Notes under the pieces: model-generated
The model's database searches: none
What the model was told of the DNA's origin: nothing
Seen by the model: the letters and a program-made list of their open reading frames with translations, nothing else
Part shown: piece by piece, positions 7,162 through 28,748 of the stretch
Layout of the letters: every line of letters begins with the position of its first letter
How positions within the stretch are numbered: position 1 is the first letter of the stretch
NCBI GenBank assembly: GCA_012839805.1
Contig: DUMU01000022.1
Location: 1-33,625 of the forward strand
Origin: Bacillota bacterium
Lineage (GTDB): Bacteria; Bacillota; Limnochordia; Limnochordales; DUMU01
Direction: 5' to 3'
Length of the DNA stretch: 33,625 nucleotides
Position numbers and translations under genes: made by a program

Positions 7162-7300
7162 CCTCTGGCCCTCGCCCGTCTGAACCCTGCAGCCCGCCGC
7201 CGGCGAGCAGTGAGCCACCCTTCGAAGCAGGAGAGATTGGACGGCCGTAGAGGAATAGGCGGGCTCTCCTCGAACTTCTTGTTGTCAGGAGGTGGTTGTC

Positions 7301-8662
7301 ATGGGGAGCTTGTCGACGAGCACGTGTGGGATTAGAACGGCACGGAACGGCCGGCCGGCGCCACTTACGGCAGTGCTGGTGACTTCCGTCCTGACCACGG
7401 CTTTAGCCGCCGGCCTGCTGGCGACCGCCACGACCGCAGTTGGGGCTGTCGGCGGGCAGAGCATCACCTACATGGCATACATCAGCCCGCAGCAGGCCCA
7501 GGCGCTGAAGAAGCTAACCGACGCGTTTTACAAGCAGACCGGCATCGAGGTCAAATTACTCAACGTCCCGTGGTATGACGTCTGGACCAAAATGAAACTC
7601 ATGATTGCGGCAGGAACGCCTCCCGATGTCTACGGCGGTGGCGTATACGCCTACGATATCGCTGCCATGGGTGCATTAGTCGATCTGACGCCCTACCTGC
7701 AGAGAGATCATCTTTCTCTGTCGAACTTCTTCGCCGCGGGCGTGGCTGCCCCTCGCTACGGTTCCATCCAGTACGGACTTCCTTTCGGCATCAACACCAC
7801 CCTGCTTGCCTATAACGCCGACATGGTGGAGGAGGCAGGGCTATCTCCCCCTGGAACTTGGAAAGACAAGGATTGGTGGACCTGGGACAAGTACGCCGAG
7901 TATGCGAAGAAGATGACAAAGGACACCAACGGCGACGGTTCTCCCGACATCTTTGGCGGAGTGGCTTGGCCACAGGGATCTTTGGACGTCCCCTGGATGT
8001 TCGGAACAGGGTGGTTGTCTCCAGACTTGAAACGCACGATCATAGACTCACCGGGAGCTATTCGCTCGTTTACGTTCGTTCGCCGGATGATTTACGAGTT
8101 GAAGGCAGCTCCCACACCAGACCAGTTCGGTGCTTTCGGTTACGGGATCAGTGCGGGCAAGATTGCGATGGGCTCCATCGGCACTTGGGATGTCAGTAAC
8201 TATCCGACCGTGATCAAGGGCTTCAAGTGGAACGTAGCCGCCATGCCCATAGGGACAGACCTACCTCCCGGCGGTGGCTACGCCATGCCGGCCTATCCAG
8301 ACGGGTTCATCCTCTTTAAGGGTGGAAACGTCGAGGCAGCATGGCAATGGGTGAAGTTCATCCTGTTCAACGAGGAAAACCTGCGGTATTTTGCCGCCAA
8401 CGTCGTGGGGCAGATACCGGCGACTGTTACCGCCGCCCGGTGGTACATTGAGAACCTGCGCCAAAAGGCACCGTATCTCGACCTGGCGACGGTGTTGCAG
8501 GCTCCCGAGCACGCCCAGATCCAGCGGCTTTTCTTCACAACCCGCACCCACGACATCCAGGCCATCGCCGACGAGGGAGTCTGGAAAATCCTCGCCCCTA
8601 ATGCCGATGTGATGAACGAGGTGAAGACCCTGGCCAGCAAGATTCAGGGAATGCTGGACTGA
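7301..8662 (+). CDS. ABC sugar transporter, extracellular substrate-binding protein
   Basis: Family 1 (MalE/UgpB-like) solute-binding protein that would capture a saccharide outside the membrane and hand it to a permease. Residues 1 to about 49 form a signal sequence with a basic start and an Ala/Leu/Thr-rich core ending near TTAVGA; there is no lipobox Cys. The mature part shows the family signs: an alpha/beta start (ITYMAYISPQQAQALKKLTD), AAGTPPDVYGGG, TPYLQRD, YGLPFGINTTLLAYN and AWQWVKFI. ATG 7301 is chosen because AGGAGG lies 8 bases upstream. It runs opposite to most of the neighbouring glycan genes and converges on the next binding-protein gene. No permease or ATPase gene is in the window. 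Confidence 0.9.
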   Translation: MGSLSTSTCGIRTARNGRPAPLTAVLVTSVLTTALAAGLLATATTAVGAVGGQSITYMAYISPQQAQALKKLTDAFYKQTGIEVKLLNVPWYDVWTKMKLMIAAGTPPDVYGGGVYAYDIAAMGALVDLTPYLQRDHLSLSNFFAAGVAAPRYGSIQYGLPFGINTTLLAYNADMVEEAGLSPPGTWKDKDWWTWDKYAEYAKKMTKDTNGDGSPDIFGGVAWPQGSLDVPWMFGTGWLSPDLKRTIIDSPGAIRSFTFVRRMIYELKAAPTPDQFGAFGYGISAGKIAMGSIGTWDVSNYPTVIKGFKWNVAAMPIGTDLPPGGGYAMPAYPDGFILFKGGNVEAAWQWVKFILFNEENLRYFAANVVGQIPATVTAARWYIENLRQKAPYLDLATVLQAPEHAQIQRLFFTTRTHDIQAIADEGVWKILAPNADVMNEVKTLASKIQGMLD

Positions 8663-8751: not shown

Positions 8752-10140
8752 CTAGCCGCGCCGGGTTCGCAGCGCCCTTTGAATCTGCAGGTCGATCTGG
8801 TGAGCGATCCCGGCCGCTACCTCTTCCACAGGTATGCTTCCGAAGAACAGCGCGTCGGCCTGAGCCCAGAGGACGTTCTGGTAGGGGAAGGTGACCAGCG
8901 GCACGTTTCGCCCGTACCGTATCACCTGCTCGGCAAAGATCCAGGCCTGGCGCGGGGACTGGCCTTCCTTCGTCACCTCGGCTACCCACTCCCGCAGCAG
9001 GGACTGGCGGGGCGGCAGGCTCCGGGCGGGCTGAACTATGAGCACCCTTAGGGCCGCCGGCGAGGCCAGGAATTTCACCAGTTCCCAGGCGGCGTCGATA
9101 TGGGCGGTTTTCCTGCTGATAGCCCATCCGCCGCCGGTGGCGGAAACCACCCGCTTTCCGGAACGCGAGCGCGGCAGCATAGTGACATCAAAGGTGAACC
9201 GGTTGCGCTTCCTTTGCTGTAGTACCGACCACGACCCGTCCAGAGTCATGGCCGCCCGCCCTTCCGAGAAGACCAACCACCGGTTGGCTTCGTTAGGCCA
9301 GGGAGCGACGTGGTAGGTCCTGCTCACGTCGGCGATCATCTTGAGGGCGTTGATCGACGCGGGCTCGGTGATGGCACACTTGGTGTAGTCGTCGTTGAAA
9401 AGACGCCCGCCTTCGGTCAACAGGAACCCTTCGAGATACTGGCTCATCCACCAGTCATACACATCGCCGAGCCCCCAAACAGCCGTTTTCTCCCCGCTGC
9501 GCCTGGTCAACTTCCGAGCCGCTTCTATCACGTCCGGCCAGGTCCAGTTATCGTCGGGGTATCGCAGCCCCATCTGGTCGAAAAGGTCAGCGTTGTACCA
9601 GAGGCCGATCGAAGAAAGATCATAGGGCAAAGCCCACCACTTGCCCTGATATTGTAACTCGGGAATCTGGGCGCCGATGAAGTCCTCGATGCGAAGCTCT
9701 TCCGCATCCCGGCGAACCAAGGGATCGATGTCATAGACAAAGCCTTCGGCTGCAAAACGCCGGTCTGTACCCGGACGTACGTAGAAAACGTCAGCCAAGG
9801 TTCCTGCAACGGCGGCCGTCGTCACCTTAACGTAATAGTTATCCTGGTCACCCGTAGGTGTGTTGGAGAGATCCACCTCGATGTCGGGATGTAACTTTTC
9901 GAACTGCTTAACCACCTCTACGAAAAGTGGCTCTTCCTCTACACCATGGTTTATCCAGAGTTTGATCGTCGTCTTCGCCGACCCACACTGAGGCAAAGCG
10001 ACGACAGCCATGACCGCCATCAGCCAAACAAGAAATGTCGTGAAGTACCATGCTCTTGATCCAAACGATAGAACTCGCCTTGGCAATGCACCACCGTCAT
10101 AACTCTTCGGACGGCCCCAGCCTTCCACGAACTTTACCAT
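8752..10140 (-). CDS. ABC sugar transporter, extracellular substrate-binding protein
   Basis: Family 1 solute-binding protein, 462 residues from the ATG at 10140. A long basic leader precedes a membrane-spanning stretch (WYFTTFLVWLMAVMAVVALP) and then QCGSAKTTIKLW. The Cys might be a lipidation site, though the preceding residues (ALPQ) fit a lipobox poorly. Family signs are VEVVKQFEKLHPDIEVDL, WWALPYDLSSIGLWYNADLF, WTWPDVIEAARKLT and AAWELVKFLASPAA. GTGGGG stands 6 bases before the chosen ATG; a second ATG five codons upstream has none at a workable distance. It follows the GH42-like gene by 88 bases on the same strand and probably ends that operon, which suggests it binds the product of the neighbouring glycosidase. 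Confidence 0.88.
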   Translation of the reverse strand: MVKFVEGWGRPKSYDGGALPRRVLSFGSRAWYFTTFLVWLMAVMAVVALPQCGSAKTTIKLWINHGVEEEPLFVEVVKQFEKLHPDIEVDLSNTPTGDQDNYYVKVTTAAVAGTLADVFYVRPGTDRRFAAEGFVYDIDPLVRRDAEELRIEDFIGAQIPELQYQGKWWALPYDLSSIGLWYNADLFDQMGLRYPDDNWTWPDVIEAARKLTRRSGEKTAVWGLGDVYDWWMSQYLEGFLLTEGGRLFNDDYTKCAITEPASINALKMIADVSRTYHVAPWPNEANRWLVFSEGRAAMTLDGSWSVLQQRKRNRFTFDVTMLPRSRSGKRVVSATGGGWAISRKTAHIDAAWELVKFLASPAALRVLIVQPARSLPPRQSLLREWVAEVTKEGQSPRQAWIFAEQVIRYGRNVPLVTFPYQNVLWAQADALFFGSIPVEEVAAGIAHQIDLQIQRALRTRRG

Positions 10141-10228
10141 CACAATCCCCACCATCCCCCTGACCAGCCTTTAAGCCCTCTCGGGCCACGATTGCGCCGC
10201 CTTTTGTCTTTCCTAATTATGTCTTTTC

Positions 10229-20610: not shown

Positions 20611-21945
20611 TTACTTTTTCCGCAGGTTTGCGATCCCGGTCTGCATCCCCTCCTGTATCCTGGTGAGCACTTCGGAGACGCTTCGCTGGTTTGATAGCAT
20701 GGCCGGAAGCTCCCTTTGGGAAACCTGCTCGAGCCACGGCCTCCAGCCGCTGATAACATGGTCGTAAGCTTCACGCCCGTATTTCTGGCCGCCGGCCAGG
20801 ACCGTCAGGACATCCCGGGCACTCTGGTAACCGCTGAGCTTGCTCGCACGGTTGAGGTATTCTGGCAACGCCGAAGCGCGAGCTACCGGCGCTACCCCGA
20901 AGGTGGTGTAACTCTCCATGACCTTTTGGCTTGTTATGTACTTGATGAACCGCCACGCCGCCTCGGGGTGCTTGGTTTTGCTGCTAACCATCCAGGGGTC
21001 GGTAGCAAGCAGGGCTGCGGGCTGCGTCCCCCGGGGAATAGCTGCGATACCCCAGCGTATCTTGCCCTGCGTCGCGATAGCTCCGTTCATGACGTCAAGC
21101 AACGGATCGTTGACAACCATCCCCACTTTTCCTGACCAGAAACCCGCCTCGCCGTTTACGGCCACGCCGTAACGAGCCAGCTCTACCAGCTTTTGATAGG
21201 CAAGCTCGTTGGCACGGCTCAGCACCGTGCACTTGTTCGGAATTGACGTTTCGTACGTGTCCCTATCGAACCAATCGCCTCCCCACAGCCAGCTGTACAT
21301 GGGGGCTACAGTTCCGTCTGTTCTCACCACGACCCCGAGCTGCTGAACCCGCCCGTCGGCACCAACCCGGAACAGCTTCCGCGCATATTCGACGAGCCGG
21401 TCCCAGGTCCACGAAGCATCATCCCAATCGATAGGCGGAGTCGTAAGACCTGCTCCTTCGAAGAGATCTGCGTTGAATAGAAGCGGATAGGGCATCGAAA
21501 GGAAGGGCATACCCCAGAAGTGTCCGCCCCATTGGTACGCCCTCCAGGCCCCTGAAAAGAAATCTTCGGCTTTCAGCTCGGCAAGATCCCTCTTGACGTA
21601 AGGCATGAGGTCCAGGAGCCAACCCTGGCTGACATACGTGGCAACTGCACCGCCGTGGTCCCATACATCAGGTGGATCGCCCGTTGTCCATAGAAGCGTG
21701 AGCTTATCTAGGTAGTCGCTGCCAGACGGCGTGACTATCTCCAGCTTGATGTCCGGATTCTGCTTCTCGAACTCGGCGAACACCTTGTTCTCCCACTGCG
21801 ACTCAGCAAGCGTCCCTCCTGCGACCCCGCCCCGCACATACACTCGTAGGGTCACTTGCGAAGCCGCCATCGTTGGCGTTCCCACTGCCGAGCACAGACC
21901 AAGGACTATCATTGCTGAGGCCAAAGCCCTGACTAGCCGCGTCAT
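20611..21945 (-). CDS. ABC sugar transporter, extracellular substrate-binding protein
   Basis: Family 1 solute-binding protein, 444 residues from ATG 21945, with GGAGG eight bases upstream; an in-frame ATG six codons earlier has no ribosome site. The first 27 residues are a signal peptide (LVRALASAMIVLGLCSAVG, cleavage near MAA-S). The mature part shows VFAEFEKQNPDIKLEIVTPS, TGDPPDVWDHGG, FWGMPFLSMPYPLLFNADLF, WTWDRLVEYARKLF and PEAAWRFIKYITSQKVM, all usual for sugar and oligosaccharide binders. It follows the CBM9-like gene after 41 bases and precedes the two glycosidase-like genes, so it probably binds the oligosaccharide they act on. The hairpin at 20555-20585 follows its stop. Confidence 0.9.
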   Translation of the reverse strand: MTRLVRALASAMIVLGLCSAVGTPTMAASQVTLRVYVRGGVAGGTLAESQWENKVFAEFEKQNPDIKLEIVTPSGSDYLDKLTLLWTTGDPPDVWDHGGAVATYVSQGWLLDLMPYVKRDLAELKAEDFFSGAWRAYQWGGHFWGMPFLSMPYPLLFNADLFEGAGLTTPPIDWDDASWTWDRLVEYARKLFRVGADGRVQQLGVVVRTDGTVAPMYSWLWGGDWFDRDTYETSIPNKCTVLSRANELAYQKLVELARYGVAVNGEAGFWSGKVGMVVNDPLLDVMNGAIATQGKIRWGIAAIPRGTQPAALLATDPWMVSSKTKHPEAAWRFIKYITSQKVMESYTTFGVAPVARASALPEYLNRASKLSGYQSARDVLTVLAGGQKYGREAYDHVISGWRPWLEQVSQRELPAMLSNQRSVSEVLTRIQEGMQTGIANLRKK

Positions 21946-21986
21946 TGCCGTTCCTCCCCTCATTCTATCCCTGCCATCCCTGGGAG

Positions 21987-23344: not shown

Positions 23345-24574
23345 ATGCCAATGTCACAACGACCGAATCGGGGTTTCCCCTCCTCGTCTTCCTCGGCGGC
23401 CAATCAGCCGCAGTACATCCGCATCAGCGAAACTCTGCGGCGTCAGATCGCCAGCGGGGACTATCGGCCCGGGGACCTTCTCCCCTCCGAGGCTCAGCTC
23501 ATGGCCGAGTTTCGGGTCAGTCGCCATACGGTGCGAGCCGCCCTGGCCCGTTTGGAACAGGATCGATTGATCACCCGGGTCAAGGGACGCGGGAGTGTGG
23601 TCAACCTCACCCCGCACCGAGTGAACGAGCCGGGAGCCGGCCAGCGGAAAGAGGACAACCAGCACACCATCGCTTTCTGCGCTGCCGAGGAAGACCCGTT
23701 TACCACGTCGATCTTGTGGGGAGTCGAATCGGAGGCCAGCCGTCATCATCTCTCGGTGCTCTTTGTCAGTTCACACGGCGATATCACCAACCAGCAGACC
23801 CTGTTGGCGGGTTTTGCCGAGAGGGGCCTCCTCGGAGTGATCGTAATGCCGGTGGACGTTCCCCCTGCCCTGATGCGGGAGTCGGCCTTCAGCCTGGACC
23901 GCTTCGCCGAATCCGGGCTGCGTCTGGTTTGCGTGGACCGGTATTACCCCGGATCCCGGGTGCCAACGGTGACCTCCGACAATTTCGATGGGGCATACCA
24001 GGCCGTGAGTCACCTGCTACACATCGGGCGTCAAAGGATCGTCGCCGTATCGGCGACTAACACCAACACCTCATCGGTAGCCGCTCGCCTGGAAGGCTAT
24101 CGCTGGGCGTTCAAGGACACAGGTATCACCCCGAACCCCGAGTGGGAGTACACCGCTTTCTTCCAGGAAGACGAGGCGGGGTTCCTCAAGTTTGTGGAGC
24201 GAGTGCAACCCGACGGTCTTTTCGCCATGAATGACATGATCGCTATGCGCTGCATGCAACTCCTCCGTGCCAGCGGCCGAAAAGTCCCGGAAGACATAGC
24301 GGTCGTGGGTTTTGACGATATCCCGGCGGCTGCGCTGTTGGACGTCCCCCTGACCACGATCCGCCAGGACGGCCAGCGGATGGGTGCGGAGGCCACCCGG
24401 CTTCTTCTGGGGACGACCGGGCCTCCGCACCCCGCCAGACCCCTTCGGATCAAGATCCCGGTACAACTCGTCGTCCGCGCCTCTACCGTGGGGCGGGAAG
24501 TAGTATCGGAGCTCGTCGCCAGCCAGGCCCCGGAGAAAAGTGACCGCGATGAAGGGCCTGCTGCCGTTTCTTAG
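23345..24574 (+). CDS. GntR-LacI type (AraR-like) transcriptional repressor
   Basis: A hybrid regulator: a GntR-family winged helix at about residues 22-90 (YIRISETLRRQIASGDYRPG, LLPSEAQLMAEFRVSRHTVR, RLITRVKGRGSVV) fused to a LacI/periplasmic-binding-like effector domain at about 105-390 (TIAFCAAEEDPFTTSILWGV, GVIVMPVDVP, FDGAYQAVSHLLHIGRQRIV, GLFAMNDMIAMRCMQLLRAS, VVGFDDIPAAALLDVPLTTI). This is the layout of AraR, the arabinose repressor of Bacillus; the sugar sensed here is not determined. AAAGGAG lies about 11 bases before ATG 23345. It diverges from the CBM9-like block and converges on the binding-protein gene at 26028, with the two stop codons overlapping. Either neighbour may be its target. 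Confidence 0.92.
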   Translation: MPMSQRPNRGFPSSSSSAANQPQYIRISETLRRQIASGDYRPGDLLPSEAQLMAEFRVSRHTVRAALARLEQDRLITRVKGRGSVVNLTPHRVNEPGAGQRKEDNQHTIAFCAAEEDPFTTSILWGVESEASRHHLSVLFVSSHGDITNQQTLLAGFAERGLLGVIVMPVDVPPALMRESAFSLDRFAESGLRLVCVDRYYPGSRVPTVTSDNFDGAYQAVSHLLHIGRQRIVAVSATNTNTSSVAARLEGYRWAFKDTGITPNPEWEYTAFFQEDEAGFLKFVERVQPDGLFAMNDMIAMRCMQLLRASGRKVPEDIAVVGFDDIPAAALLDVPLTTIRQDGQRMGAEATRLLLGTTGPPHPARPLRIKIPVQLVVRASTVGREVVSELVASQAPEKSDRDEGPAAVS

Positions 24575-26028
24575 CGCCGGGTGTTACGGGTTGCCCAATA
24601 CTTGTCCAGGGCCTTCTGCGCGGCTTCCGCCGCCCGGGCCACTGCCACCCGCGGCTCGGCTGTGCCTCCGATCACCGGCCAGAAGCTGTTGTTGACGGTG
24701 TTTATCAGGTCGTTCAAGATCGGAAGGGCGGGCAGCGCTACCTCCGTCTCCAGGGCCATGAGCAGCCGGTCGAAAGCGGGATTGAGCTTGCGATACTCGG
24801 GGTTTTCGTTGAACTTGCGCACCGGCGAAGGCCGCCCCTGCGCGAACATCAAGAAGCCCGAGCCGCGAACGTCGGTCGTCAGGAATTTGACAAAAAGCCA
24901 GGCCGCCTCTTGTTTCTCCTTCGGAAGACCCTTGGGGATCACATACCCCCAACCGAAGGAGAGGCCGGAGACTCCGGTCGACTTGGCCTTGGGGTTGCGC
25001 TCGTTATACGGCATCAAGCCCACCCCCAGCCAGTCCGGGCGTCGCTTGGTCTCTTTGGCCTGCTCCAGTACCAGGTTCATCACGCTGACGTTCTCAAAGA
25101 TGGTTGCTTCCTTGCCACTGATGAACGCCTGCGCTACCCGGGTTTCGTTGCGATTCAGGAAGTCATTCTGCTGAGCGGGATTGTTCATCTTGATCAGTTG
25201 TCCGATGAAATCGGCAGCCTCAAGGCCCTCGTTGCTGTTGAACGCCACGCGCCGGAGATCGGGGGTGAGAAAAGTCCCGTTGTTGCTATACAGGAAGGGA
25301 ACGAACTGCTCGTACCAGGCTCGGAAGCCCAGTTGCGTTATCCGGCCGCTGCCATCCCGCCGGGTCAGCTTCCGGTTGGCCTCCAGAACACTCGACCAGG
25401 TTTCCGGCGGCTTTTCCGGGTCAAGGCCCGCCTCCTCGAAAAGTTCTTTGTTGTACATGTAGAAGCTGTTATTCAACCCGACCGTGGGCAGCGGGAGCGT
25501 CCACAACTCTCCCTCGTAACGGAAGGCATCCACCTCGCTACGGTAGAACATGTTGAGATCGACGTTGTCCCGTTTCACCAGGTCCGTGATGGGGATGATG
25601 GCGTTAATGTCGACCAGGGCAAAGATGTCTGCTCGCCGTGCCATCATCACTTCGGGCGGTACTCCGGCGGCGTACGCAGCCATAATCTTGCCGCCGATGT
25701 TGTCCCACCCCTGGATCTCGCTCTTCACGGTAATCCAGGGATACTCCTTCTGAAACTCCGCGATGACCCGGTCCATCAAAGGCTTGCGGGTGCCATCCCA
25801 CCAGTTCCAGAATCGTATGGTCACCGGCTTGGCCTGGGCGACCTCGCCGGCCGGGCGGTCCCCGCTCGGCTGTGCCCCCAATGCCGGTACGGTGGTCGTT
25901 GCCAGGCCCATCGCCAGGCCCATAGCCAGACCCAATGGGACCAGGAAAGCCCGAACCAGGAAGACCCGTAGGACTTCCACCCAGCCCTGCCTCGCTCTCG
26001 ACCTTGGTGCCAGCTGCGACACCGGCAT
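24571..26028 (-). CDS. ABC sugar transporter, extracellular substrate-binding protein
   Basis: Family 1 solute-binding protein of 485 residues. A basic start and a hydrophobic stretch (FLVRAFLVPLGLAMGLAMGL) end near ALGA and form the signal peptide. The mature part has VTIRFWNWWDGTRKPLMDRV, IAEFQKEYPWITVKSEIQGW, AAGVPPEVMMARRAD, LWTLPLPTVGLNNSFYMYNK and AWLFVKFLTTD. It differs clearly from the other three binding proteins, so a separate ligand is likely. A G-rich stretch stands about ten bases before the ATG. Its TAA stop (complement of 24571-24573) shares bases with the TAG stop of the facing regulator gene. There is no transporter membrane gene beside it. Confidence 0.9.
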   Translation of the reverse strand: MPVSQLAPRSRARQGWVEVLRVFLVRAFLVPLGLAMGLAMGLATTTVPALGAQPSGDRPAGEVAQAKPVTIRFWNWWDGTRKPLMDRVIAEFQKEYPWITVKSEIQGWDNIGGKIMAAYAAGVPPEVMMARRADIFALVDINAIIPITDLVKRDNVDLNMFYRSEVDAFRYEGELWTLPLPTVGLNNSFYMYNKELFEEAGLDPEKPPETWSSVLEANRKLTRRDGSGRITQLGFRAWYEQFVPFLYSNNGTFLTPDLRRVAFNSNEGLEAADFIGQLIKMNNPAQQNDFLNRNETRVAQAFISGKEATIFENVSVMNLVLEQAKETKRRPDWLGVGLMPYNERNPKAKSTGVSGLSFGWGYVIPKGLPKEKQEAAWLFVKFLTTDVRGSGFLMFAQGRPSPVRKFNENPEYRKLNPAFDRLLMALETEVALPALPILNDLINTVNNSFWPVIGGTAEPRVAVARAAEAAQKALDKYWATRNTRR

Positions 26029-26300: not shown

Positions 26301-26329
26301 TTGACGCCTTCCCGTTCCAGAGGTATAAG
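26301..26329 (+). promoter_or_regulatory. Promoter of the SAM riboswitch transcript
   Basis: TTGACG (26301-26306) and TATAAG (26324-26329) are separated by 17 bases and lie about 30 bases before the aptamer. Both boxes match sigma-70 consensus at five of six positions. Confidence 0.65.
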
Positions 26330-26358
26330 GGATAATGGAAAACGGATAGCTGAACTAA

Positions 26359-26471
26359 GCCCCATCCAGATCGGCGGAGGGACGGGCCCGATGAAGCCGG
26401 GGCAACCTGCCCGGAAGGCGTGCCGGGCGTGGTGCCAATTCCCGCAGGCGTAGACCTGAGAGATGGGAGCC
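26359..26471 (+). ncRNA. SAM-I (S-box) riboswitch aptamer
   Basis: S-adenosylmethionine-binding mRNA leader. The conserved core is easy to read: GGAGGGAC (26376-26383), GGCCCGATGAAGCC, GGGGCAACC, a GCCCGG/CCGGGC P3 stem, GGTGCCAATTCC and the closing GAGAGATGGG. P1 is formed by CCCATC near 26361-26366 and GATGGG at 26462-26467. A promoter precedes it and a terminator (26497-26527) follows, so high SAM should stop transcription. The only downstream gene in reach on this strand is the charged protein at 26625; no methionine or SAM gene is nearby. Confidence 0.93.
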
Positions 26472-26496
26472 AGGAGACATGATTCGACGTGTTGAT

Positions 26497-26527
26497 GCCC
26501 CTGCTCCCGCAGGGGCTGTTTATTTTT
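26497..26527 (+). terminator. Intrinsic terminator of the SAM riboswitch expression platform
   Basis: GCCCCTGC (26497-26504) and GCAGGGGC (26509-26516) form an 8-bp stem with a 4-base loop, followed by TGTTTATTTTT. It begins 25 bases after the aptamer, the normal place for the SAM-controlled off switch. Confidence 0.9.
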
Positions 26528-26624
26528 GGGCGTCCCGGCCCGGAGCACGTGCACCGCCTAGTTACGGAGGCACCGTGGGCTTCGTAGCGTCCGAAAGCGA
26601 GTGTTCATCCGGGAGGGACGAAGG

Positions 26625-27014
26625 ATGGCCAGACACCGGTATTCGGAGATCAAGACCGAGTTCGTACGGCGGGAGCTAAGACGGACCCGCTGGAAGAACC
26701 GCGACTACATCCACACCCTCATGCTCGTCGAGGATCTGTACGCCCAGGGCGGCCCGAAGCACTGGCCCGAGGGCATGGGGCTTCGTGCTATCAGCCAGAG
26801 GTATCCCATGGCGGTACACGCCATCCGCAGCGAACTGATCGACGGCAAGGTACTCAGCGATGAAGAGCTGCGGGCATGGCTGGCCGAACGCCGGCGCGAG
26901 GAGGAGCGCCGGCGCAAGGAGTGGGAAGAGGAACATAGACGAAGGCGCGAGCAGGAGCGGGAGGACGAACGCCTGGATCGCGAGGAGTGGCTTCAGGCGG
27001 GCGGGCTGCCATGA
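26625..27014 (+). CDS. Small charged coiled-coil protein downstream of the SAM riboswitch, function unknown
   Basis: 129 residues from ATG 26625, with GGGAGGG about six bases upstream. I do not recognise a family. Residues about 1-75 could be a small globular or DNA-binding domain (YSEIKTEFVRRELRRTRWKN, then GMGLRAISQRYPMAVHAIRS, which has a helix-turn-helix look). Residues about 80-125 are almost only Glu, Arg and Lys and should form a long charged helix. It is the only gene between the SAM riboswitch terminator and the facing HD-GYP gene, so it is the presumed target. The stop codon lies in the loop of an 11-bp hairpin. Met-regulation of such a protein is unexpected. Gene reality is supported by the ribosome site and amino-acid composition only. 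Confidence 0.65.
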   Translation: MARHRYSEIKTEFVRRELRRTRWKNRDYIHTLMLVEDLYAQGGPKHWPEGMGLRAISQRYPMAVHAIRSELIDGKVLSDEELRAWLAERRREEERRRKEWEEEHRRRREQEREDERLDREEWLQAGGLP

Positions 27015-27029
27015 TATCGGCAGCCCGCC
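27000..27029. terminator. Hairpin enclosing the stop codon between convergent genes
   Basis: GGCGGGCTGCC (27000-27010) pairs with GGCAGCCCGCC (27019-27029), 11 perfect pairs, around an 8-base loop containing the TGA of the 26625 gene. The facing HD-GYP gene ends at 27041. It could act in both directions although it lacks a T-tract. Confidence 0.5.
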
Positions 27030-27040
27030 TCGTCCCCGGC

Positions 27041-28438
27041 TCACAAGGCCCTCCCGGCCAGATCCACTATCTCCCTGTCTAGGGCTCCGCTCTCGGCCAT
27101 CGATACAAGGATACTCTGCACCTGTTCCCGCGGAAGGCCCGGCCGGTAGGGACGATCGTCGGAAAGAGCGGAAAAAACATCACAAATGGCAATGACTCTG
27201 GCCTCCGTACTAAGCGAGGAGGAATCGAGCCCGAAGGGATAACCCCGCCCATCCAGACGTTCGTGGTGGAAGGAAGCCCAGTCCCTGATGCGATCAAAGC
27301 CAGGAACCTCGTCAAGGAGTTGGTACGTTAGATAGGGGTGACGTTTGACTATGCACATTTCCTCCTCTGTCAAAGCAGCTTTTTTGTCAAGAATGGTTTC
27401 AGACACACCGAGCTTGCCAAGGTCATGCAAAAGTCCGGCCACCCGAAGCTCCCTACACGTCAGCTCGTCAAACCCCAGGTGCTTACCTAAAATGAATGCG
27501 CACTCCCCAACTGACTGGGAGTGCTGGCGCGTGTAAGGGCTTCGACGGTCGACGACCTCGGCGAACACCCGAGCGAGCACCTCAAGAATATCGATGACCG
27601 ACGAACGTTGAAGCGAAGGTTCGGCGGAGACGGCCACCCTCGTTACAATCTCTCCGGTTCTCGCCTCAATCTCTTCGGTTTCGGGCGCGTCCCTCCCGGC
27701 CCGCGCCCCCAGCCTCCCAGGGAGGCACGCTTCGACGGTCTTGGCCAAGAAATCCGGTTCCAGGTCGAACCAGAAGCTGTCGCTCCTGGCCAGATCGTGC
27801 AATACATCGATGAGGGCGGGATCAAATTCCCGACCGCGCCGGGTCTCGAGTACCTCAAAGATTTCCCTTTTCTGATAGTTAAAAGGTTTCGCCGGATCCA
27901 ACAGCACATCCAGCCTGTCAGCCAGGTGGACTATCCGAGATTCAATAGGGATTTGATCTCTACAGGCTTGAGAAGGATTTCCCCCTTCCCATTTGTCGTG
28001 GTGATGCAGTATCACGCGCGCGTGAGCCAGGAGAAAACCCCGACCTTCCCCGCCCGCATCTGGTTCAGCCGCGGTCGTCGTGGTCGTAGTGGTCGTAGTG
28101 GTTGTCTCTCCTTCGCCACCTGCCCGGATGCCAGCTGTTCGCAGGGGCTTCCCGGCCCCGCCCCCGGTCAAGATGCGGTAGCCGTCTACCGCGTGTTCAT
28201 ACGGGTAATCCACCTCGAACTTGTGGACTCTGGCCCTATCGCCCCACGTTCTAATTCCGAGGTCGTGTATGAGAGCAGATCCCGTTGTTAAAGCAATCTT
28301 CGCTTCCGGCAGACCGAGGCTCCGGGCGATCTTGGAGGCAAGGACGGCAACCCTCCTGTGATGCGACAGAATGCCACTATAGCTAAGGTCAAGGGCTTTG
28401 CTGACCGACTTCAGAAAACCCCAAATAAGCTCGGGCAA
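27041..28438 (-). CDS. Tandem HD/HD-GYP domain protein (likely cyclic-di-GMP phosphodiesterase)
   Basis: 465 residues with two HD-type metal phosphohydrolase domains. The C-terminal one (about 285-450) is a full HD-GYP: HSQSVGECAFIL, LLHDLGKLGVSETILDKKAA, KRHPYLTYQLL, and HHERLDGRGYPFG, the set used to hydrolyse cyclic di-GMP. The N-terminal one (about 25-200) has HHRRVAVLASKIA, SALIHDLG, ILHHHDKWEGGNP and IVHLADRLDVLLDP, so its GYP triad is replaced by GNP and its activity is doubtful. A run of 11 threonines lies in the first domain. No sensor or membrane segment is seen. The start is the TTG at 28438, nine bases after AGGAGG; the TTG at 28447 abuts that site. It converges on the gene downstream of the riboswitch. 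Confidence 0.88.
   Translation of the reverse strand: MPELIWGFLKSVSKALDLSYSGILSHHRRVAVLASKIARSLGLPEAKIALTTGSALIHDLGIRTWGDRARVHKFEVDYPYEHAVDGYRILTGGGAGKPLRTAGIRAGGEGETTTTTTTTTTTAAEPDAGGEGRGFLLAHARVILHHHDKWEGGNPSQACRDQIPIESRIVHLADRLDVLLDPAKPFNYQKREIFEVLETRRGREFDPALIDVLHDLARSDSFWFDLEPDFLAKTVEACLPGRLGARAGRDAPETEEIEARTGEIVTRVAVSAEPSLQRSSVIDILEVLARVFAEVVDRRSPYTRQHSQSVGECAFILGKHLGFDELTCRELRVAGLLHDLGKLGVSETILDKKAALTEEEMCIVKRHPYLTYQLLDEVPGFDRIRDWASFHHERLDGRGYPFGLDSSSLSTEARVIAICDVFSALSDDRPYRPGLPREQVQSILVSMAESGALDREIVDLAGRAL
28073..28105 (-). repeat. Polythreonine codon tract in the HD-GYP gene
   Basis: Eleven consecutive Thr codons with a 9-base sub-repeat (ACTACGACC) encode a Thr tract between helices of the first HD domain. 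Its slippage-prone sequence may vary in length between strains. Confidence 0.8.
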
Positions 28439-28748
28439 GACACCCAACCTCCTACCGGTATCACCCTAACTACCATTGTCACTCAGCCATCAACGCGACC
28501 GTATTGCGGTAGATCGATTTCGGATCCAACCGTGTCCTTGCCGCATTCGACGAGGTGGCCGCCCTTGCAACTGCGCGCCGCGAAAGGAATTCTTCATCTT
28601 TTCTTACCGCAGCAGCCCGGGGAGCCGCCACTCCAATCTACGCGCCACCCCGGGCAACTCCGCCGGCATTGCCACCATAATTGCCGCCCCTCCCATCTTG
28701 CTAGAAGCGCTGGCGGAAGAGCCTCGCCCGGGACGATCACCCCGCCAC
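28439..28748. other. Intergenic stretch upstream of the HD-GYP gene
   Basis: I see no gene here. Frames open on both strands are GC-rich shadows without ribosome sites. The AGGAGG of the HD-GYP gene is at its left edge. No clear promoter is seen; the best match on the minus strand (TTGATG, 15 bases, TAGTTA) is weak. Confidence 0.5.

Follow-up and report, generated by a model that had tools for sequence, protein, structure and literature searches.

A SAM-I riboswitch upstream of a gene for an undescribed helical protein family in Limnochordia and related lineages

SAM-I riboswitches bind SAM and turn transcription off when SAM is high, and most S-box genes known so far serve the supply of methionine and SAM. 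In the ubiG operon of Clostridium acetobutylicum, a SAM riboswitch acts in antisense (PMC9943018). One paper remarks, in general terms only, that SAM riboswitches of Bacillales, Clostridiaceae, and Chloroflexi control novel genes (PMC3766115), and our literature search found no paper linking SAM-I riboswitches to Limnochordia. The locus described here shares with the transcription-attenuation type of SAM-I riboswitch (RF00162) a full-length aptamer, an antiterminator overlapping P1, an intrinsic terminator, and an upstream sigma-A-type promoter, and departs from the norm of RF00162 in its target: where one expects a known methionine or SAM gene, there is one whose protein family has no name. 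The canonical S-box genes metK, metNIQ, and metY stand under the same riboswitch class in the same genomes and presumably follow the same off-at-high-SAM logic; unlike them, the target considered here is a single gene, carries no enzyme or transporter domain, and occurs in only some genomes. The riboswitch itself is ordinary.

The window, that is, the whole stretch of 33,625 nt that was analyzed, is contig 7 of a 2.78-Mb draft genome from the class Limnochordia. The features discussed below are the following.

26301–26329, + strand: sigma-A-type promoter, TTGACG-17-TATAAG (10 of 12 consensus bases; similar promoters precede all 15 S-box units compared below)
26359–26469, + strand: SAM-I (S-box) riboswitch aptamer (RF00162, 77.1 bits, E 1.2e-16)
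26465–26508, + strand: predicted antiterminator, in which GGGAGC(C)AGG (26465–26474) pairs with CCTGCTCCC (26500–26508)
26497–26528, + strand: intrinsic terminator with an 8-bp stem (26497–26516) and a T-rich tail (position kept in the 15 units)
26611–26616, + strand: probable ribosome binding site, GGGAGG
26625–27014, + strand: gene for a 129-aa protein of an undescribed helical family, very probably S-box regulated (homologues, purifying selection, alignments, and models)
27000–27029, no strand assigned: perfect 11-bp inverted repeat, GGCGGGCTGCC / GGCAGCCCGCC, with an 8-nt loop (read from the sequence)

The original prediction described a strong promoter, an S-box aptamer, and a terminator. 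The aptamer was borne out by the covariance model (cmscan): the match lies above the gathering score of 44.4, spans the full model (positions 1–108), and is the sole Rfam match across the window; the two outermost pairs of its P1 are nonstandard. The promoter is present, and “strong” slightly overstates its agreement with the consensus; its boxes lie at 26301–26306 and 26324–26329, separated by a 17-nt spacer, and a strict promoter scan did not list it, the final base of the −10 box being other than T. The terminator consists of a GC-rich stem followed by TGTTTATTTTT. By pattern alone it is within chance expectation (1 found versus 0.9 expected in a pattern scan), yet a terminator-like hairpin lies 3′ of the aptamer in 15/15 units.

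The segment at 26465–26474 comprises the 3′ strand of P1 and adjoining bases, and its partner at 26500–26508 is located in the 5′ arm and loop of the terminator, which makes P1 plus terminator and the antiterminator mutually exclusive, as in known SAM-I attenuators. Calculations with forced pairs (ViennaRNA) gave an antiterminator of 9 bp that excludes both P1 and the terminator, with P1 plus terminator computed at −72.8 kcal/mol and the antiterminator at −68.7 kcal/mol. Both antiterminator segments are also readable in the leader of the homologue in genome G002. In our reading, 26301–27014 is an S-box transcription unit, intact and with a single gene. When SAM is ample, the aptamer would close P1 and the terminator would halt transcription; at falling SAM levels, P1 would give up its 3′ strand to pairing with the 5′ arm and loop of the terminator, transcription would proceed, and the 129-aa protein would be produced. 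That this leader binds SAM and is off at high SAM is what we infer by analogy with other SAM-I riboswitches.

The open reading frame starts with ATG at 26625, 155 nt past the aptamer end; an alternative 137-aa reading is open from GTG 26601, and homologues favor the start at 26625. Judging by sequence comparison, it is a real gene under purifying selection, since its changes relative to the G002 homologue (67% identity over 129 residues) concentrate at third codon positions. At the three codon positions, the two genes differ by 36/24/61 nucleotides, with dN 0.24 and a dS of 2.26 that is near saturation, making the dN/dS ratio approximate. Other homologue pairs show a like codon-position bias, which is less sharp for G425/G295.

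The next gene (27041–28447, − strand) is convergent, lies only 27 nt downstream, and encodes an HD-domain (HD-GYP-like) protein, in which we also noted a run of 11 threonines (TTTTTTTTTTT) that a repetitive tract near 28070–28100 encodes. Because this gene is on the other strand, the 129-residue frame is the sole gene able to follow the switch, as originally claimed. The inverted repeat between the convergent genes covers the stop codon of the 129-aa frame, is without a T tract, and from its sequence is a possible transcript end. In its convergent downstream gene, this SAM-I locus resembles the ubiG system, and the short distance would suit an antisense-acting S-box, whose low-SAM readthrough into the HD-GYP gene represses that gene. 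An antisense riboswitch has no sense target of its own, however, and the window differs from the ubiG system in having a conserved sense gene between the switch and a convergent neighbor that varies from locus to locus; the inverted repeat, too, may end transcription. We consider antisense action highly improbable.

Promoter, aptamer, terminator, and family gene occur in the same order at 15 loci in 14 genomes, the window genome included, and the family gene is intact in 11 of these units. The window genome itself carries a second paralogue, likewise behind an S-box. A search of the class gave a family match in 10/73 genomes, with SAM-I directly upstream in G000 (both copies), G001, G002, G036, G038, G028, G065, G066, and G067; the exception is G025, with a 5′-truncated gene remnant and no S-box. 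In a sample of the phylum, 18/398 genomes had a family match, and the f64 members of G425, G295, G247, and G456, as well as a truncated copy in G405, also lie behind SAM-I. The promoters read TTGACR-17 in nearly all units (TTAACA in G066; a spacer of 18 in G405), and a ribosome site is shared in the same position order across the 15 complete units. In G103 (f47), the aptamer start and the terminator are kept upstream of the gene, and the middle of the aptamer is deleted. The family gene of this genome is flanked by two decaying tandem S-boxes (contig 21, L128, 1450–2170), the downstream one of which scores 43.2 bits (below the cut-off), has a terminator, and has no evident gene after it. Apart from this weak element, Rfam at a relaxed threshold gave only implausible matches at the loci lacking an S-box. 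A weak protein match in G008, covering 41 residues of charged helix, was absent from the profile search and was dropped.

Conserved neighbors were considered as a clue to function and set aside: synteny is confined mainly to the same-genus pairs G038/G028, G036/G067, and G295/G425, and the remaining loci share little besides the family gene and generic ABC transporter or two-component genes. Since the flanks mostly differ between loci, the association of switch and gene has outlasted changed surroundings, at loci that are not 15 independent events, related genomes sharing ancestry.

The original prediction had left two options, a new S-box target or a stranded switch whose gene was lost, and had named homologues that never follow S-boxes as the sign against the first. 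The homologue search showed the opposite, with the family repeatedly found directly downstream of S-boxes, so that a new S-box target is well supported, and control of the 129-aa gene by the S-box is very probable. A switch that lost its true gene and now has this frame as a chance neighbor would account for the lack of a following methionine gene, and the group does contain damaged or gene-less S-boxes, such as the downstream S-box of G103; recurrence of the pairing at 14 other loci, in mostly unlike surroundings, already contradicts this for the window, and we give it practically no credence. Within the phylum, the family would instead belong to the S-box regulon of Limnochordia and some other lineages, as an optional member that recurs alongside metK, metNIQ, and metY.

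By inspection, the other two S-boxes of the window genome precede a MetN-like ATPase gene and a MetY-like (O-acetylhomoserine sulfhydrylase) gene, and of approximately 36 S-boxes inspected in relatives, most stand before a metK-, metN-, or metY-like gene, a few having other or uncallable followers. Two followers were unusual: a 163-aa protein of no recognized kind (MDRLKEVVMKALASVGVEHDD...) in G120 (contig 20, L126) and a 548-aa acyl-CoA-synthetase-like frame in G009 (contig 141, L157). Elsewhere in the window, four related sugar-type ABC substrate-binding proteins (7292–8662, 8752–10155, 20611–21963, and 24571–26028) and a regulator that combines a DNA-binding domain of GntR type with a sensor domain of LacI type (23345–24574) mark a carbohydrate-use region.

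At least six of about 28 family loci are damaged, in draft genomes where an isolated stop may stem from faulty sequencing and a fusion from faulty assembly. The damage comprises in-frame stops (one TAA in G038, two TAG in G066), loss of the 3′ end in G028 and of the 5′ end in G025, and a disrupted gene in G336. In G405 (contig 159, L068, 1498 onward), the first ~23 family codons run in frame into peroxiredoxin (AhpC)-like sequence behind an intact S-box, which reflects either a true fusion by deletion or a fault of assembly. The several damaged copies indicate that the gene is dispensable; from these sequences it seems useful nonetheless. Frequent decay would also suit a passenger gene, such as a mobile or toxin-like cassette whose promoter is a captured S-box and which has no role in SAM metabolism, as would its stand-alone nature, patchy distribution, varied neighborhoods, and the presence of two copies each in G000 and G148. 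We regard this as quite unlikely, given the purifying selection on the gene, the lack of any relative among plasmids, phages, and viral contigs, and a neighborhood comparison that found no transposase or partner gene common to the loci.

The coupling of gene and switch is not universal. The class to which families f76 and f86 belong has a family match in 8/12 genomes, and those of them that were searched showed no SAM-I riboswitch near the gene or elsewhere in the genome. The seven intact members from this class form one side of a branch in the family tree with moderate support (80/79), and the unrooted tree needs one change of state for switch presence. Because these genomes keep the gene without SAM-I anywhere, the role of the protein need not be tied to SAM. 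In this clade, a 22-nt hairpin with a conserved loop, GGCGAGGACCCCTCACCTCGCC, lies ~24–62 nt downstream of each intact family gene (L115–L121, in G148 with two copies, G183, G216, G266, G313, and G380) and was not found elsewhere in those genomes at ≤1 mismatch. It contains TCACCTC, a sequence also present in the 3′ end of 16S rRNA. As read from its sequence, the hairpin could pair with the GAGGTG-type ribosome sites of the family genes themselves and is possibly a gene-linked 3′ regulatory element.

The protein family is named by none of the libraries searched. Pfam, NCBIfam, and PHROG gave nothing below E 0.05 for the protein and its homologues; a PDB profile search gave a best E of 0.084, its weak matches, which we judged to be chance, falling on charged or helical stretches in unrelated proteins. 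Foldseek found no significant neighbor for two models in the PDB, nor for one model among viral structures. The two AlphaFold models agree (mean pLDDT 92.8 and 94.3) and show several short helices followed by a long C-terminal helix. In the window protein this is the Glu/Arg helix of the original prediction (residues 79–124), and its length and charge suggest that it may serve self-association.

The helix-turn-helix look that was also claimed found no support: no such family matched in Pfam or NCBIfam, and the confident helical models had no significant fold match in the PDB. This bears on the idea of a DNA-binding protein that is induced at low SAM and regulates the transcription of methionine or sulfur genes. 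S-box control would fit such a regulator, as would a small, basic, helical protein (pI 9.1) with two short helices (47–59 and 61–73) joined by a tight turn; however, pI varies from 5.3 to 9.7 within the family, and the helix after the turn, which reads VEYECIKKE in most members, is not rich in residues of the DNA-contact type. We therefore consider a regulator of this kind unlikely.

In an alignment of 18 family members, ten columns are invariant, and a GG close to the C-terminus is nearly so. This GG raised the idea of a ubiquitin-like or Pup-like tail, which was set aside, since K/R/L and P/D follow it rather than E/Q. Many conserved positions (F, W, Y, P, and G) appear to be structural and there is no obvious catalytic set, so that binding of a partner seems likelier than enzymatic activity. 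An S-box-regulated gene whose product may bind a partner is the reading that we consider likely. Our tentative picture is of a small, nonenzymatic helical adaptor, probably self-associating, that would bind a cellular partner in SAM or methionine shortage. A SAM-starvation effector of a new kind, binding the ribosome, RNA polymerase, or a methylation enzyme and so adjusting the cell to low SAM, is a possibility that we hold to be doubtful; if true, the S-box regulon would have a global response arm besides its supply genes.

The gene is small and defined, and the switch itself indicates the condition in which to seek its effect. Natural comparisons are at hand in the two S-box paralogues of one genome and in a sister clade that has the protein and lacks SAM-I. 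A conserved stand-alone target that has no recognizable relatives and keeps the same switch in changed surroundings suggests that Limnochordia and related lineages respond to SAM shortage in a way not yet studied.
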